Source: Dehalococcoidia bacterium
GTDB lineage: Bacteria > Chloroflexota > Dehalococcoidia > SpSt-223
Assembly (NCBI GenBank): GCA_025054935.1
Contig: JANWZD010000007.1
Location: 62,379 to 126,378, forward strand
Direction: 5' to 3'
Length of the DNA: 64,000 nt
Within the stretch, counting starts at the first letter, position 1, and every line of letters starts with the position of its first letter. Of this stretch, positions 20,089 through 26,653 are shown in pieces. The position numbers were made by a program, and so were the translations under genes. Under the pieces are notes generated by a model that saw only the letters and a list, made by a program, of their open reading frames with translations, was not told the origin of the DNA and searched no databases.

Positions 20089-21485
20089 CCATGCTCGCGC
20101 CAAAGGCGCGGCAGCAGGCGGCCCGCTCCTTCGGCCTGCTGCTTGCGCTGCTCTTCGTCGTCGCGCTCGGAGTGCGGCTTATCCGCATCGGCGATCGCGC
20201 CTTCTGGACCGATGAGGGATACAGCGCTTGGCTCTCGGCGCAGCCTGTGGCCGTGATCGTCGGGCATGATCCCTTTCATCCCCCGCTCTATCCCCTGCTC
20301 CTGAAAGGATGGGCGGCTCTCCACCCGCTGCTCGATGGAGACGGCGGACGGCGCCTTCTCTCGGCGCTCGCCGGCGCGCTTACCGTTGTCGTCTGCACGG
20401 CGACTGTTCGCGCCCTCGGCTTGCCGGGGGCGGGGCTGACCGCCGCGCTGACCACGACCTCTGCTCTTGGCGTGTGGTACTCGCAAGAGCAGCGGAGCGT
20501 CGCCCTCACTGCCCTGCTGCTCACGGTTGCCGCCGCCGCTCTCGCACTGCTGCTGTCCCCCCGTCTCCTGCAGCCGACACGCGGCCATCGGCGCGGCGGC
20601 GACGGTCGGCACGCGACCCCGCTGCCACCGCTGCTGCTTTGGGCAGCCTCTGGGCTTGCAGCGCTCCTCGGGGTGTGGACCCACTACGCGATGATCCCTC
20701 TCCTTGGCGCGCTGAGCGTCGCCTTCCTCGCCGCGGGGTGGAAGCGGCGCGACCTGCTCGTCGGCTGGAGTGTCGTCACGGCGCTGGTGATGCTTGGGAG
20801 CTTGCCGCTCCTCCCCCGCCTCGAGGATGCCCTCGGCCAGCTGAGCGGGCACCGCTTCGCTGAGCGAGCCGTGCTCCTGTTCGTGCCAGGCGTGGCGGCG
20901 CTCGTGCTCGCAGGCGCCGGCGGCTGGTGGGTGGTCCGCCGTCACCCTGCGACCGCGCGGCCCCTCCTTGGCAGAGGCGCGGCGGTCGTCATCCTCGGTC
21001 TTGCCGCAATCATGCTGACGCCGGCCGGCAACAGCATCAAACGCCACCTCGCTGTGGTCGCGCCGCTCGCGCTGACCAGCGCCGCGGTCAGCATCGCAGC
21101 CTGGCGGCCTCGGCTTGGCCCGCCGCTCGTCGCGGCGGGGCTGCCGGCGCTCGCTCTCGTACTCTTCCTCCACCCCAAGGAGGATTGGCACGGAGTCGCC
21201 GCGCTTCTTAAGGCCGAAGAACAGCCGGGCGACGTCCTCGTGCTTTACCAAGGCTACCAAGCGATCGTCTTGGCGCGGTATTACAACGGCGCGCTGCCCC
21301 TCATCACGTTCGGTGAGGGAGAGGACCCCGCCCAGCTCGCTCCGAAGGTCGCGCCTGCCTCCCGCGTCTGGCTTGTCGAAGTCAACCCGACGGTGCCGCC
21401 GTCTCTTGTTCCAACCCTTGAAGCGCTTCGGCGGAAGACGGTCGAGCAGCAGTTCCCTCGGATCCGGGTGGCGCGCTTCGAGTAG
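20085..21485 (+). CDS. GT39-like integral membrane glycosyltransferase
   Basis: A 466-residue multi-helix protein of the ArnT/PMT-like superfamily, which moves sugars from polyprenyl-phosphate carriers on the outer face of the membrane. The first loop has the catalytic-type acidic motif FWTDEGYSAWLS, followed by HDPFHPPLYPLLL and WYSQEQRSVAL. About ten hydrophobic helices follow, then a short soluble tail. Start GTG 20085 overlaps the preceding stop; ATG 20091 is an alternative. The 3' end overlaps convergent fpg by 104 bases. Acceptor and sugar are unknown. Confidence 0.8.
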   Translation: MTMLAPKARQQAARSFGLLLALLFVVALGVRLIRIGDRAFWTDEGYSAWLSAQPVAVIVGHDPFHPPLYPLLLKGWAALHPLLDGDGGRRLLSALAGALTVVVCTATVRALGLPGAGLTAALTTTSALGVWYSQEQRSVALTALLLTVAAAALALLLSPRLLQPTRGHRRGGDGRHATPLPPLLLWAASGLAALLGVWTHYAMIPLLGALSVAFLAAGWKRRDLLVGWSVVTALVMLGSLPLLPRLEDALGQLSGHRFAERAVLLFVPGVAALVLAGAGGWWVVRRHPATARPLLGRGAAVVILGLAAIMLTPAGNSIKRHLAVVAPLALTSAAVSIAAWRPRLGPPLVAAGLPALALVLFLHPKEDWHGVAALLKAEEQPGDVLVLYQGYQAIVLARYYNGALPLITFGEGEDPAQLAPKVAPASRVWLVEVNPTVPPSLVPTLEALRRKTVEQQFPRIRVARFE

Positions 21486-22329
21486 CCGGCTGGCAGCGGG
21501 GACAGAAATACGTCCCTCGTTGCGCGACAACAATCCGCTCGATCGGCGTCCTGCAGCGCGGGCACGGCTCACCGCGGCGAGCATGGACACGCGGCAGCGC
21601 GGCATCGGGCGCCGCTCTGCCATTTCGCACTTTCGCCACCCCCTCAGTCACAGCGAGCGCGACTACGGCTTGCGCCTCGCGGAGCAGCGCAGCGGCCTCC
21701 GCATCGCTGAGGCTGGACGCTGCCCGCAGGGGGTGGATCCCGGCCGCATGCAGCGCCTCGTCCGCGTAGATATTGCCGATCCCGCTGAGGACCGCCTGAT
21801 CGAGCAGCACCGCTTTGATCGGCGCTCGCTTGCGCCGCCGCAGCGTCGCCGCAAACTCGCCCGCCTCGATAGTGTCCAGCAGCGCATCGGGGCCTCGCCG
21901 CTGCGCCGCTAAGAAGGCGGCGGCCTCCGGCCCGGGCAGCAGGCGCGCCTTCGCGAACGTTCGAACGTCAGAGAGATACAGCCGTGAGCCGTCCTGAAAA
22001 TGGATGACCAGCCGCGTCGTCTTGTGCGGCAAGGGAGAGTCGAACGCCGGGATCGGATGCCCGCCGGCGAAGCGGCCACCATCGGGATGCTCATAGACAA
22101 TCTGGCCCGACAGATTCAGGTGAAGGACAAGGCTCCTGCCGTCATCGAAGTCCCAGACGAGGAATTTGGCGACCCGCCGTACTCCGACAATCCGTCTGCC
22201 CACGAGCGTCGCGGCATCACCGGCGAGGAACAGTTTCGGCAGCAGGAGGTCGAGAGCAGCGATTGGCAGTCCCACAATCCGCTCGGCAAGCCCGCGGCGG
22301 ATCGTCTCAACCTCGGGGAGCTCTGGCAT
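21382..22329 (-). CDS. fpg: Formamidopyrimidine-DNA glycosylase
   Basis: A bifunctional glycosylase/AP lyase for 8-oxoguanine and FaPy lesions. It begins MPELPEVETIRRGL (catalytic Pro after Met removal, Glu3), has Lys55 (VAKFLVWD), the H2TH motif LSGIGNIYADEALHAAGIHP, and a C-terminal zinc finger CPRC...RGTYFCPRC with the conserved Arg. The finger normally ends the protein; here about 35 extra Ala/Ser/Pro/Glu-rich residues follow and overlap the convergent glycosyltransferase gene. The ATG shares one base with the stop of ogg1 (TAATG), so the two are coupled. Confidence 0.97.
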   Translation of the reverse strand: MPELPEVETIRRGLAERIVGLPIAALDLLLPKLFLAGDAATLVGRRIVGVRRVAKFLVWDFDDGRSLVLHLNLSGQIVYEHPDGGRFAGGHPIPAFDSPLPHKTTRLVIHFQDGSRLYLSDVRTFAKARLLPGPEAAAFLAAQRRGPDALLDTIEAGEFAATLRRRKRAPIKAVLLDQAVLSGIGNIYADEALHAAGIHPLRAASSLSDAEAAALLREAQAVVALAVTEGVAKVRNGRAAPDAALPRVHARRGEPCPRCRTPIERIVVAQRGTYFCPRCQPATRSAPPGSEGTAARPSSAEALQGLEQETAAPSG

Positions 22330-23228
22330 TACGCTGCCCGCCGCCGCGCGGCAGGAGGGGTCTGCCGGCGACGGTGAAAGAGATAGTGCTGCGCCCAGCC
22401 GGGATTGGCCGGAAACGCCGTGCGGTAAAGGTCGGCGACGCGGAGATAGGTGCGCTCCGTCAGGCTCGTGGTCGGGATCGCCTCGCCAAACAGCGCGCGG
22501 GCTGTCGCCCAGATATGCGAATCAACCGGCACCGCCTCGTCGAAGCCGAGCCCATAGAGCAAGACACAATCGGCGATTTTCGGGCCGATCCCCGGGAGCG
22601 CCATCAGTTCGGCCCGGGCCTCACGATAGGGAAGCGCTGCCAACCCTTCCAGCCACGCTGCGGGGCGCGCTGCCAGCACGGCGCCTAGCTGGTGCAGCAC
22701 TCGGCCGCGGTAGCCGAGATCAGCATCGCGCCAAAGCGCGCGCGGGTCCGCCGCAGCGAGCCGCTCCCATGACGGCAGTGCCCAGAAGCGCGTTCCGTCC
22801 AGTTCCCCCACCGGTGTCCCATAGGTGGTGGCGAGGCGGTCGAGGGAGCGGGCGATGCGCCCAACATGGTTCGCCGAGGCGATCGCGAAGCTGACGAGCG
22901 CGTCGGCGGCAGGCTGGCGGACGACGCGCAAGCCCGGAAATCGGTCGAGGGCGTCGTCAAGGGGAGGAGCGAGGCGGCGGAGCGCCGCGCGCAGAGCGGC
23001 GAGGTCGACCTCGAGGCGGAAAAAGCGCGCAACGTCCGCCGCGGTGACCGGAGCGCCGACGCTCTCAACGGTGAGCGCGCCGCGCGCGAAGCGGACACGC
23101 CAGACCGCCTGGCCGACAACGCCGACCCAGCAGTCTCCCTCCCGCCGCCAGCGAAATACCTGCCCGCTGGTAAGGGTCGCAGCGAGGTCGAGGGCATCCT
23201 CCGGGACGGGGAGCGTGACGCTAGCCAT
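22329..23228 (-). CDS. ogg: OGG1-type 8-oxoguanine DNA glycosylase
   Basis: A 299-residue HhH-GPD glycosylase/lyase of the OGG1 class. It has the N-terminal TSGQVFRWRREGD, LGYRGRVLHQL, and the hairpin LPGIGPKIADCVLLYGLGFDEAVPVDSHIW. Lys217 (nucleophile) and Asp236 are 19 residues apart, as K249 and D268 are in human OGG1. It overlaps polA by 8 bases and fpg by 1, making a polA-ogg1-fpg operon. OGG1-type enzymes are uncommon in bacteria, and finding one joined to fpg gives two unrelated enzymes for the same lesion. Confidence 0.93.
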   Translation of the reverse strand: MASVTLPVPEDALDLAATLTSGQVFRWRREGDCWVGVVGQAVWRVRFARGALTVESVGAPVTAADVARFFRLEVDLAALRAALRRLAPPLDDALDRFPGLRVVRQPAADALVSFAIASANHVGRIARSLDRLATTYGTPVGELDGTRFWALPSWERLAAADPRALWRDADLGYRGRVLHQLGAVLAARPAAWLEGLAALPYREARAELMALPGIGPKIADCVLLYGLGFDEAVPVDSHIWATARALFGEAIPTTSLTERTYLRVADLYRTAFPANPGWAQHYLFHRRRQTPPAARRRAA

Positions 23229-26049
23229 GGACCGGGGTCATCTCGTCCCAGTTTTTCCCCGCTTTGACCTCAACCTGCAAGGGAACGGAGAGGGGGAACG
23301 CATGCTCCATCACCTCACGGACAAGCGCCGCGACCTCCTTGAGCCGGTGTTCGTCAATCTCCAGCACAAGCTCATCGTGGACCTGCAGCAGGAGCCCGCA
23401 GTCGATCTCCCGGCGGCGCAGTTCTTCGTGCAGCCGGATCATCGCGATCTTGATGATGTCGGCAGCCGTGCCTTGGATTGGCATGTTGATGGCGGTGCGC
23501 TCAGCAGCGCCGCGGACCGAGGGATTGGGGCTGAGAATTTCCCGCTCGGAGAAGAGCTGATAGCGGCCGGTGAGCGTTTGGACTCGTCCCTGACGCGCCT
23601 CCGCCTTTGTCCGTTCGAGGTACTCCTTGATCCCGGGGTAGGTCTCGAAGTAGGTGCGGATGAACTCCGCCGCCTCCTTGCGCGACAGCTCGGTCCGCTC
23701 GGCAAGCCCGAAGTCGCTGATCCCGTAGATGATGCCGAAGTTGGTCGTCTTCGCAACCCGCCGCTGGTCTGGGGTCACGTCCTCGAGCGGGACGCGGAAA
23801 ATCGCCGCCGCCGTCGCCGCGTGGATATCCTCACCCCGCTCGAACGCTTCAACCAGCCGCGGATCCCGCGACATATGGGCGAGGACGCGCAGCTCGATCT
23901 GGGAGTAGTCAGCAGAGAGCAGCACCGCTCCGGGCCGTCCGGCGATAAAGGCTTGGCGGATGCGGCGGCCGAGGGGGGTGCGGACCGGGATGTTCTGCAA
24001 GTTCGGTTCGGATGAGCTGAGGCGGCCCGTCCGCGCAACGGTTTGGTTGAAGTTGGTGTGGATCCGGCCCGTCTTCGGATTAATCAGGGCGGGAAGGGCA
24101 TCGACATAGGTCGCCTTCAGCTTGGTCAGCTGGCGGTACTCGAGGATCTGCTCAACGACCGGATGAAGCCCGCGCAGCTCCTCGAGCACTTGCGCATCGG
24201 TGGAGTAGCCGGTCTTAGTGCGGCGCGCAGAGGGAAGCTTCAACTCCTCGAACAACACCGCGCCGAGCTGCTGCGTCGAGTTGATGTTGAAGCGGTGCCC
24301 GACCGACGAGTAGATCGCCGCTTCGAGTTCGAGGATCTTCTCCGCGAGTTCACGCGAGAGCGACCGCAGGAGAGCGGTATCGACGGCGATGCCGCATCGC
24401 TCCATCGCCGCCAGCACCGGCACAAGCGGCATCTCAATGTCGTAAAACAGCTGGCTCAGCCCCTGCGCCTCGATCTCGCGGGCGAGCACGTCGCGGCAGC
24501 GCGCGGTCGCGATGACATCGCGAGCAGCGTACGCCGCCGCCGGCTCGATAGCGACCTCCGCCATCGAGATCTGCTTCGCCCCTTTGCCGATCAAGTCGCT
24601 GATCGGCGTCATCTCCATGCCGAGCTTTGCTGCCGCAAGCTCTTTGAGCCCGAGCGCCCGCTCATTGAGCAGGTAGGCGGCGATCATCGTGTCGAAGCGC
24701 AGGCCGGCGACCTCGACGCCATGTTCTGCGAGCACGATCAGGTCGTATTTGCCGTTATGGGCGATTTTCGGCTTAGCCGGATCGGCCATCACCGGCTTAA
24801 GACGGGCGACAACAAGGTCAAGGGGCAGCTGCCCTGCCGCCGCGGACGGCGCGAGCAGAGCGGCAGCGGGCCCGTGCTTGGCAGGCACCACCTGCAGCGC
24901 CGGGCCGTCGACATGCCCGACGGGGATGTAGAACGCCTCGTCACCCGGCAGCGGGAGGAGCGCGATCCCGACGAGGCGCGCCTGCATCGCCTCCCGACTG
25001 TCCGTCTCGGTGTCGAGCACAATCTCCTCCGCCGAGGCCAGTATCCGCTCCAATCGTTCCAAGTCGGCTTCGGTGCGGACAATGGTGGGGGGCGGCGCAC
25101 TGCCTGCCGCCTGCGCCGCCGCCGGAAACATCGCCAGCTGCACCTCAGAGCGCGCACGCTCGCTCAGGCCCGGAAGCGTCTGCACCCGCCCCAGCAAGCT
25201 CCGAAACTCCATCTCCCGGAAAAACTCGGTGATCTTCGCGAGATCGAACGGGCCCACCGCGCTCGCGTCAAGGTCCAGGGTGACCGGCGCATCGCGCACG
25301 ATCGTCGCAAGGCGCTTTGAGAAGAGGACGTTGTCGCGATGGGCCGCGAGAGCCTCCCGAATGCGGGTAGGGGTGACCTCCTCGAGATGATCCAGAATTC
25401 CCTCGACAGAGCCAAACTGCTGGAGCAGCTTCGCCGCAGTCTTTTCCCCGATCCCCGGGACCCCCTTGAGATTGTCAGAGGGGTCGCCGACGAGCGCTTT
25501 CAAATCCGGAATTTGGTGCGGCGCAATCCCGTAGCGCTCGCGGATTGCCGCCGGCGTGTACAGCACCGTGTCGGTGAACCCCTTTCGGCTCGTGAGCACC
25601 GAGATATGGTCGTCGATCAGCTGAAAGGTATCCTGGTCGCCGGTGACAATGATGGTGTCGAGACCGCGCTCTTCAATCTGGCGGCTGAGCGTGCCGATGA
25701 TGTCGTCGGCCTCGTAGCCTTCGGCCTCGTAGTAGGGGATGCCAAAAGCGGTGACAAGCTGGCGCACGCGGGGGATCTGAGCGCGCAAGTCAGGGTCGCC
25801 GGCAGGGCGGTTCGCCTTGTAGTCGGCATACTCTGCATGCCGAAACGTCGGCGCCGGCAGATCGAACGCGAACGCAAGGTAGCTCGGCTGATAGTCGGCG
25901 AGGAGGCGAAGCAGCATCGTCGCGACCCCAAACACGGCGCCCGATGGTTCGCCAGTGCGCTGCACGGTGAGGGGCGGCATTGCGTGATATGCCCGGTGAA
26001 CCAACGCATGACCATCAAAGAGCAGGAACAGACCGGGACGATCCGCCAT
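23221..26049 (-). CDS. polA: DNA polymerase I
   Basis: A 942-residue three-domain polymerase for repair synthesis and primer removal. The 5'-3' exonuclease domain (1-290) has FDGHALVHRAYHAM, YEADDIIGTL, TGDQDTFQLI and GVPGIGEKTA. The 3'-5' exonuclease motifs look intact: LDTETD, HNGKYDLIVL and YAARDV. The polymerase domain has DYSQIELRVLAHMS, RRVAKTTNFGIIYGIS and LLQVHDELVLEI. I chose ATG 26049 with GGAGGAGG 7 bases upstream; codons before it are not conserved. A -10 box (TATACT, minus strand 26083-26078) suggests a promoter of its own in addition to possible read-through from the upstream gene. Confidence 0.97.
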   Translation of the reverse strand: MADRPGLFLLFDGHALVHRAYHAMPPLTVQRTGEPSGAVFGVATMLLRLLADYQPSYLAFAFDLPAPTFRHAEYADYKANRPAGDPDLRAQIPRVRQLVTAFGIPYYEAEGYEADDIIGTLSRQIEERGLDTIIVTGDQDTFQLIDDHISVLTSRKGFTDTVLYTPAAIRERYGIAPHQIPDLKALVGDPSDNLKGVPGIGEKTAAKLLQQFGSVEGILDHLEEVTPTRIREALAAHRDNVLFSKRLATIVRDAPVTLDLDASAVGPFDLAKITEFFREMEFRSLLGRVQTLPGLSERARSEVQLAMFPAAAQAAGSAPPPTIVRTEADLERLERILASAEEIVLDTETDSREAMQARLVGIALLPLPGDEAFYIPVGHVDGPALQVVPAKHGPAAALLAPSAAAGQLPLDLVVARLKPVMADPAKPKIAHNGKYDLIVLAEHGVEVAGLRFDTMIAAYLLNERALGLKELAAAKLGMEMTPISDLIGKGAKQISMAEVAIEPAAAYAARDVIATARCRDVLAREIEAQGLSQLFYDIEMPLVPVLAAMERCGIAVDTALLRSLSRELAEKILELEAAIYSSVGHRFNINSTQQLGAVLFEELKLPSARRTKTGYSTDAQVLEELRGLHPVVEQILEYRQLTKLKATYVDALPALINPKTGRIHTNFNQTVARTGRLSSSEPNLQNIPVRTPLGRRIRQAFIAGRPGAVLLSADYSQIELRVLAHMSRDPRLVEAFERGEDIHAATAAAIFRVPLEDVTPDQRRVAKTTNFGIIYGISDFGLAERTELSRKEAAEFIRTYFETYPGIKEYLERTKAEARQGRVQTLTGRYQLFSEREILSPNPSVRGAAERTAINMPIQGTAADIIKIAMIRLHEELRRREIDCGLLLQVHDELVLEIDEHRLKEVAALVREVMEHAFPLSVPLQVEVKAGKNWDEMTPVHG

Positions 26050-26144: not shown

Positions 26145-26597
26145 CTATTGCTGAGAGCGGCCGGGACGCGCGGAGACCTTCCTGCGCTGGGCAGGCGCAT
26201 CGGCCTGCGCTGCCGGCTGCCGGCGGCGCAGGCGCCGCTGAGCGGGGTCTGAGGGTGACCCCACGTGTGCTGGCGCGCGAAGAGGACGCAGCCGCTGCAG
26301 CACCCGACCATCCGGAGCGAGCAGCGCAATCTCCGCCTCGTCCGAGGAGCGCCGCTCCGGCTGCCACGGAGGGAGGGCTTCCTCGTGCTCGACGCCGATC
26401 AAGAGATAGCCAGGCTGAATGCGCTTGTCACCCCGGAGGGTGATCCGACTGAATGGCTCCAGCTCGCTCGCGGCGACAAGACAGACATTGGGGGCAACAC
26501 CGAACCGCTCCAGATAGCGCGCCGCCGCCGCGTCGATCCGGTCGGCGAGCGGCACCATGCGGTTAGGCTCGTACCACAGCAGTCCCATCTCTACCAT
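26145..26597 (-). CDS. Conserved-looking protein of unknown function under a LexA-box promoter
   Basis: A 150-residue protein that I do not recognise. The first 75 residues look like a folded domain (GLLWYEPNRMVPLADRIDAA, RYLERFGVAPNVCLVAASEL, GDKRIQPGYLLIGVEHEE). The last 50 are Arg/Ala/Gln-rich and probably disordered; their basic charge could bind nucleic acid. ATG 26597 has AGGAG 7 bases upstream; ATG 26588 is an alternative. A LexA-like box overlaps the promoter, so expression should rise after DNA damage. polA starts 95 bases downstream on the same strand. Any role in repair is inferred from the operator and the neighbours. Confidence 0.7.
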   Translation of the reverse strand: MVEMGLLWYEPNRMVPLADRIDAAAARYLERFGVAPNVCLVAASELEPFSRITLRGDKRIQPGYLLIGVEHEEALPPWQPERRSSDEAEIALLAPDGRVLQRLRPLRAPAHVGSPSDPAQRRLRRRQPAAQADAPAQRRKVSARPGRSQQ

Positions 26598-26609
26598 TTG
26601 GCGCTCCTA

Positions 26610-26623
26610 AGAACATTTGTTCG
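26610..26623. promoter_or_regulatory. LexA (SOS) box
   Basis: AGAACATTTGTTCG, whose reverse complement is CGAACAAATGTTCT. Nine of the ten defined positions of the Gram-positive LexA/DinR consensus CGAAC-N4-GTTCG match. It lies just downstream of a TAGAAT -10 box on the minus strand, where a repressor would block initiation. Confidence 0.75.
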
Positions 26624-26624
26624 A

Positions 26625-26653
26625 ATTCTAGCGAAGCGAGGCCGGCCCCGCAA
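26625..26653 (-). promoter_or_regulatory. Promoter of the LexA-box gene
   Basis: Minus-strand TTGCGG (26653-26648), 17-bp spacer, TAGAAT (26630-26625). The predicted start falls inside the LexA box, giving a leader of about 20 bases with an AGGAG SD before ATG 26597. Confidence 0.6.

Follow-up and report, generated by a model that had tools for sequence, protein, structure and literature searches.

We propose that a 150-codon gene lying directly upstream of polA in the window (the whole 64,000-nucleotide stretch of DNA analysed here) is a LexA-repressed SOS gene whose product serves as an adaptor in chromosome maintenance, and we put the probability of this explanation as a whole at about 0.6. 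Judged by its predicted operator, LexA regulation of the window gene is highly likely; since a LexA operator very often stands at the gene or operon start, DNA damage probably induces the family gene, and we hold this induction with equally high confidence. The adaptor role during the SOS response is put forward tentatively, with the odds somewhat against it. LexA action on operators of this kind is established knowledge. In the undamaged cell LexA would sit on the GAACAAATGTTC palindrome across the transcription start and block the promoter, and upon damage RecA filaments would trigger LexA self-cleavage, leaving the family gene derepressed. The product would be a small protein of two parts, a conserved alpha/beta domain of ~70 residues and a basic disordered tail. 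The tail would tether the protein to DNA or to replication proteins, while the domain would contact another protein; in many relatives this partner may be the FtsK/SpoIIIE-like ATPase and/or the DUF6504 protein of the same operon.

The elements named by the initial annotation, namely the promoter hexamers, the palindrome, the ORF and polA beginning 95 nt beyond the stop of the family gene, can all be read in the sequence (Table 1). The palindrome, which reads CGAACAAATGTTCT with its flanking bases on the minus strand, lies 2 nt (TC) past the -10-like TAGAAT and 13 nt ahead of the family-gene start codon. The -35 hexamer TTGCGG is weak (3/6), and the TTGCGG-17-TAGAAT promoter falls under the threshold of the consensus promoter scan and is therefore unreported there. 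The one genus relative that also has this region carries the family gene with unchanged neighbours on both sides; its N-domain is 68% identical (dN 0.20, dS 2.22), and dN/dS between the two genes is ~0.09 over that domain. The box of this relative, TAGAACAAAAGTTCTA, follows its -10 with the same 2-nt gap as in the window (TATACT-TA-GAACAAAAGTTC). Because the relative preserves the ORF with a box at equal distance from the -10, we conclude from this comparison that the 150-codon ORF is a real gene. Another assembly of the same genus (G002, 80% complete) is uninformative because the family gene and polA are both missing from it. Across the class the family was found in 4 of 393 genomes, all four of which have the box, and AGAACATATGTTCTGTTATC stands upstream of two members from other families of the class.

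Table 1. Coordinates of the family gene, its control elements and the genes downstream, as positions in the window.
Feature	Position	Strand	Evidence
Family gene, 150 codons (ATG at 26597, end of stop at 26145)	26145-26597	minus	ORF, homologues, dN/dS, AlphaFold2 model, tail charge
LexA-type operator GAACAAATGTTC	26611-26622	minus	sequence, genome copies, equivalents in relatives
Promoter-like hexamers TTGCGG-17-TAGAAT (TTGCGG 26653-26648, spacer 17 nt, TAGAAT 26630-26625)	26625-26653	minus	sequence; -35 weak
Ribosome-binding site AGGAG	26604-26608	minus	sequence
polA, DNA polymerase I with 5'-3' exonuclease, 3'-5' exonuclease and polymerase domains (ATG at 26049)	23221-26049	minus	Pfam
ogg-type 8-oxoguanine glycosylase, overlapping the polA end	22329-23228	minus	PF07934, 1.2e-13
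fpg (mutM)	21382-22329	minus	PF01149, PF06831, PF06827

The LexA motif published for Gram-positive bacteria is GAAC-N4-GTTC (PMC3323433), and the Streptomyces version has been given as tCGAAC-N4-GNNCGa (PMC9380542). The initial annotation had tied its operator prediction to the presence of a LexA gene, and the window genome does encode LexA (PF01726, HTH; PF00717, S24), with its own box GAACAGACGTTC ahead of lexA. We considered that the box in front of the family gene might be a palindrome that arose by chance, or might serve some other repressor. The degenerate pattern GAACN4GTTC gives this some ground: genome-wide it is at background (55 sites versus 58 for the reversed control), and in the window its three occurrences against 0.66 expected, a number reached in 1 of 100 shuffles, are little above chance and not clearly beyond it. 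The exact 12-mer GAACAAATGTTC, however, occurs four times in the 3.57-Mb genome versus zero times for the control, always immediately upstream of an ORF; the same motif precedes lexA in the window genome and at three family loci (L085, L093 and L056); and the pattern is far more frequent at family units than at other ORFs (see below). With these counts we regard a chance or foreign operator as very improbable. Equivalent boxes stand in the genus relative and in 14 families.

The four copies of the 12-mer lie ahead of the family gene, a radical SAM gene, an ORF of ~190 codons and a gene for a sigma-70-like factor. The radical SAM protein (L138 2119-3036, minus strand) shows weak similarity to spore-photoproduct lyase (SPL) and carries QLSLF near its C-terminus, a canonical-looking sliding-clamp motif. 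The ~190-codon ORF (L139 2405-2977, minus strand) had no significant match in a Pfam search, and by eye we take it to be like Rad52/DdrA-type annealing proteins. The sigma-70-like factor (L017 1576-2112, plus strand), with regions 2 and 4, lies behind AGAACAAATGTTCTAT and is possibly an SOS-controlled sigma factor. The palindrome, its position at the promoter, the genomic LexA and the motif for lexA autoregulation are all as in the Gram-positive LexA regulon (Bacillus subtilis, Mycobacterium, Streptomyces), and the LexA regulon of S. venezuelae likewise includes a radical SAM gene (PMC9380542). Unlike in the described LexA regulons, the product in the window belongs to a family unnamed in the profile libraries searched. 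No exact LexA box was found at recA of the window genome, and the Y-family polymerase domain PF00817, detected in 11 of 14 controls, gave no match in this 97% complete assembly. The SOS response of this organism may be unusual.

The family was uncovered by profile search alone, with a profile built from four sequences; a single-protein search of GTDB contigs returned no family matches. Of the 400 Chloroflexota genomes sampled, most of them draft or metagenome assemblies, 85 were found by this profile to hold a member. We examined the start of each family unit, taken as the family gene or as the ATPase or DUF6504 gene where one is directly upstream, with gene starts set by rule; a box lying as much as 60 nt into the unit was also accepted if the partner's start codon was in doubt. 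An exact GAACN4GTTC lies within ~150 nt upstream of the gene or operon start at 46 of 86 family loci (23 of 27 with the ATPase, 4 of 8 with DUF6504 and 19 of 51 solo loci), spread over 14 GTDB families (f1, f7, f21, f90, f96, f110, f112, f114, f118, f119, f130, f131, f134 and f139). The same pattern is found at 4 of 263 other ORF starts in these loci, among them two lexA genes and one ATPase of a family operon, and in 0.36% of random 200-nt windows from the family loci. Fisher's test for 46/86 versus 4/263 gives p = 9e-29, a value uncorrected for relatedness among loci that are not phylogenetically independent; the spread of exact boxes over 14 families is the sounder measure. The bases left free by the search pattern also fit a TAGAACATATGTTCTA-like consensus. 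Some further loci have the box farther upstream (182 nt in a member from f21) or with one mismatch, and about one third of the family loci, some of them second copies, have no clear box near the start. A LexA gene is present in 40/40 family holders and 38/40 non-holders, so co-occurrence does not discriminate. Because 46 of 86 family loci are boxed against 4 of 263 other ORFs, the LexA regulon very probably includes this family as a recurrent member. The initial annotation had also suggested that homologues be compared for the box and for linkage to polA: the box is kept in relatives within the class and across the phylum, and the polA linkage is limited to the genus.

In a 47-row alignment of the family one Trp is invariant and Asp, Ala, Tyr, Pro and Gly positions are near-invariant. 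Searches of Pfam, NCBIfam and PHROGs with 47 members gave just single-member matches at chance level, a profile search of the PDB with the family gave none below 0.05, and no paper describing the family was found in the literature searched. The protein stays unrecognised, as the initial annotation had it, and its gene is very probably a LexA-regulated one, from an undescribed family that extends through the phylum Chloroflexota. The small folded-looking domain with a basic tail, read earlier from the sequence, is borne out by AlphaFold2: residues 11-70 of the window protein have a mean pLDDT above 90 and the first ten residues ~80, the secondary structure runs from strand 2-9 through helix 17-32 to strands 38-42, 53-57 and 64-70 (beta-alpha-beta-beta-beta), and residues 72-150 are of low confidence and look disordered. 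The last 77 residues carry a net charge of +9. Foldseek and VIA-align searches with the predicted domain gave no match above noise; the best structural matches, 8cfa_E (Z 5.3, 71 residues, 4.0 A) and 3bjq_J (Z 5.2, 64 residues, 2.2 A), are both under the stated noise of 7-8. Matches to the HK97-type capsid P-domain, chorismate mutase and RidA folds were judged too weak.

It has been proposed from the window alone that the protein is induced by damage and works together with Pol I and the 8-oxoG glycosylases, which would place it in base excision repair. In the window polA, ogg and fpg do follow the gene directly on the same strand, and the order of the gene and polA is preserved in the genus relative. 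The comparison of loci does not sustain this reading: polA, ogg and fpg stand at no other family locus within the few kb examined, the partners that do recur are different ones, and polA has a TATACT-like -10 of its own in both genus members. By its own -10, polA probably carries a promoter separate from that of the family gene. As far as the loci tell, the adjacency of polA, found only in two members of the window genus, is a peculiarity of that genus; since it is confined to one genus, the Pol I reading is without comparative support and we consider it improbable. The genus relative, an assembly with 8% contamination, also contains a second polA-like stretch (G001:C8:282-821) that is 52% identical to the PolA of the window.

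Away from the genus the partner genes that recur encode an FtsK/SpoIIIE-like ATPase, a DUF6504 protein, a membrane protein or LexA. The ATPases are ~260-280 or 400 aa long; a match to FtsK_SpoIIIE (5.1e-13) and a weak one to FtsK_alpha are seen for the longer ones, and the shorter ones have a weak FtsK match (0.0012). Unlike in FtsK/SpoIIIE translocases, the Walker B of these partners (L063-L096) lacks the acidic pair DE and has D-D, D-G, D-H or similar in its place, and since the usual DE is missing it is conceivable that they might act without hydrolysis. The ATPase is an operon partner and not the family itself. DUF6504 (PF20114) is likewise a separate protein that shares LexA-boxed operons with the family in several Chloroflexota; DUF6504 or DUF6504-like genes are in family operons at L127, where one (4e-8) precedes the family gene, and at L106, L065, L128 and L056, several of them boxed. 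The domain is missing in the window genome and was named in no paper of the literature searched. The lexA gene adjoins the family operon at three loci. At L085 and L093 lexA is followed by a further box and then by the genes of the ATPase and the family protein. At L056 a single strand carries two boxes together with genes for a LexA-like S24 protein, for an FtsK-like ATPase (9.5e-36), for a small membrane protein, for a protein resembling DUF6504 (E 0.13, under the cut-off) and for the family protein.

Such operons would fit an SOS checkpoint of division or chromosome segregation, with the family protein modulating an FtsK-like motor to delay division or to have DNA moved away from the septum. 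The ATPase gene is directly upstream in 27 of 86 loci, FtsK alpha and motor domains are recognised in the partners at L056 and L085, a small membrane protein is part of the operon at L056, L072 and L115, and with their altered Walker B these ATPases might act without hydrolysis. Most solo loci, that of the window included, have no ATPase beside the family gene, the ATPases of 260-280 aa resemble FtsK only weakly, and nothing similar to a known SOS division inhibitor turned up. We therefore view a checkpoint function as doubtful. A broader proposal is speculative, with the odds against it: lexA, the FtsK-like ATPase, the membrane protein, DUF6504 and the domain protein might form a recurrent, undescribed SOS module of Chloroflexota that handles replication forks or septum-trapped DNA after damage, with the domain protein as a clamp- or DNA-bound adaptor. 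Its components are found whole in L056 and in part elsewhere.

The tails are net positive in 25 of 29 family members. Ten members have tails of >80 residues, and four of these ten carry Qx[ST]L[WF] (QVSLW, QTSLW and twice QATLW), a number to be set against at most one in 2000 shuffles; a fifth long tail carries PLSLW. The functional clamp motif of ImuB is QLPLWG (PMC10421592), and the likeness of Qx[ST]LW to it suggests that long-tailed relatives may bind the sliding clamp. The family protein could then be an accessory of a translesion mutasome, in a role comparable to that of ImuA'/ImuB with DnaE2, with which it also shares (predicted) SOS control. DUF6504 as an operon partner points the same way, as this domain is also found near imuB/dnaE2 in other phyla. 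Against this, no homology to ImuA/ImuB was detected, neither imuB nor dnaE2 was noticed on informal inspection beside family genes, and the window genome has neither PF00817 nor DUF6504, nor does the tail of the window protein contain Qx[ST]L[WF]; with tail motif, Y-family polymerase and DUF6504 all missing from the window species, a mutasome role is not simply transferable to it. As a general account of the family we find it unlikely.

SOS control is common among mobile elements, and the family could have come from a transfer or phage module that retained this control. Four IMG/VR contigs classed as viral (L057, L150, L151 and L152) contain family members, and a serine-recombinase-like ORF lies beside the one at L057. 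Modules of an FtsK-like protein plus a membrane protein look like transfer cassettes, and the occurrence of the family in the class is patchy. On the other side, many members have chromosomal neighbourhoods that are conserved, at several loci for example with acpS-like and peptidase-like genes, the gene is under purifying selection within the genus, and INPHARED phages and PLSDB plasmids gave no match for the family members tried. An origin in mobile elements is thus also unlikely, and we retain the LexA-repressed adaptor as the preferred explanation.

No published study of the Chloroflexota SOS regulon was found in the literature searched. Present in about one fifth of the sampled genomes and boxed in 14 families, the family described here is a strong candidate to fill a gap in that regulon. 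Its operons connect lexA with an FtsK-like ATPase and DUF6504, neither of which has a known role in the SOS regulon there, and the predictions are directly testable in cultured Chloroflexota.
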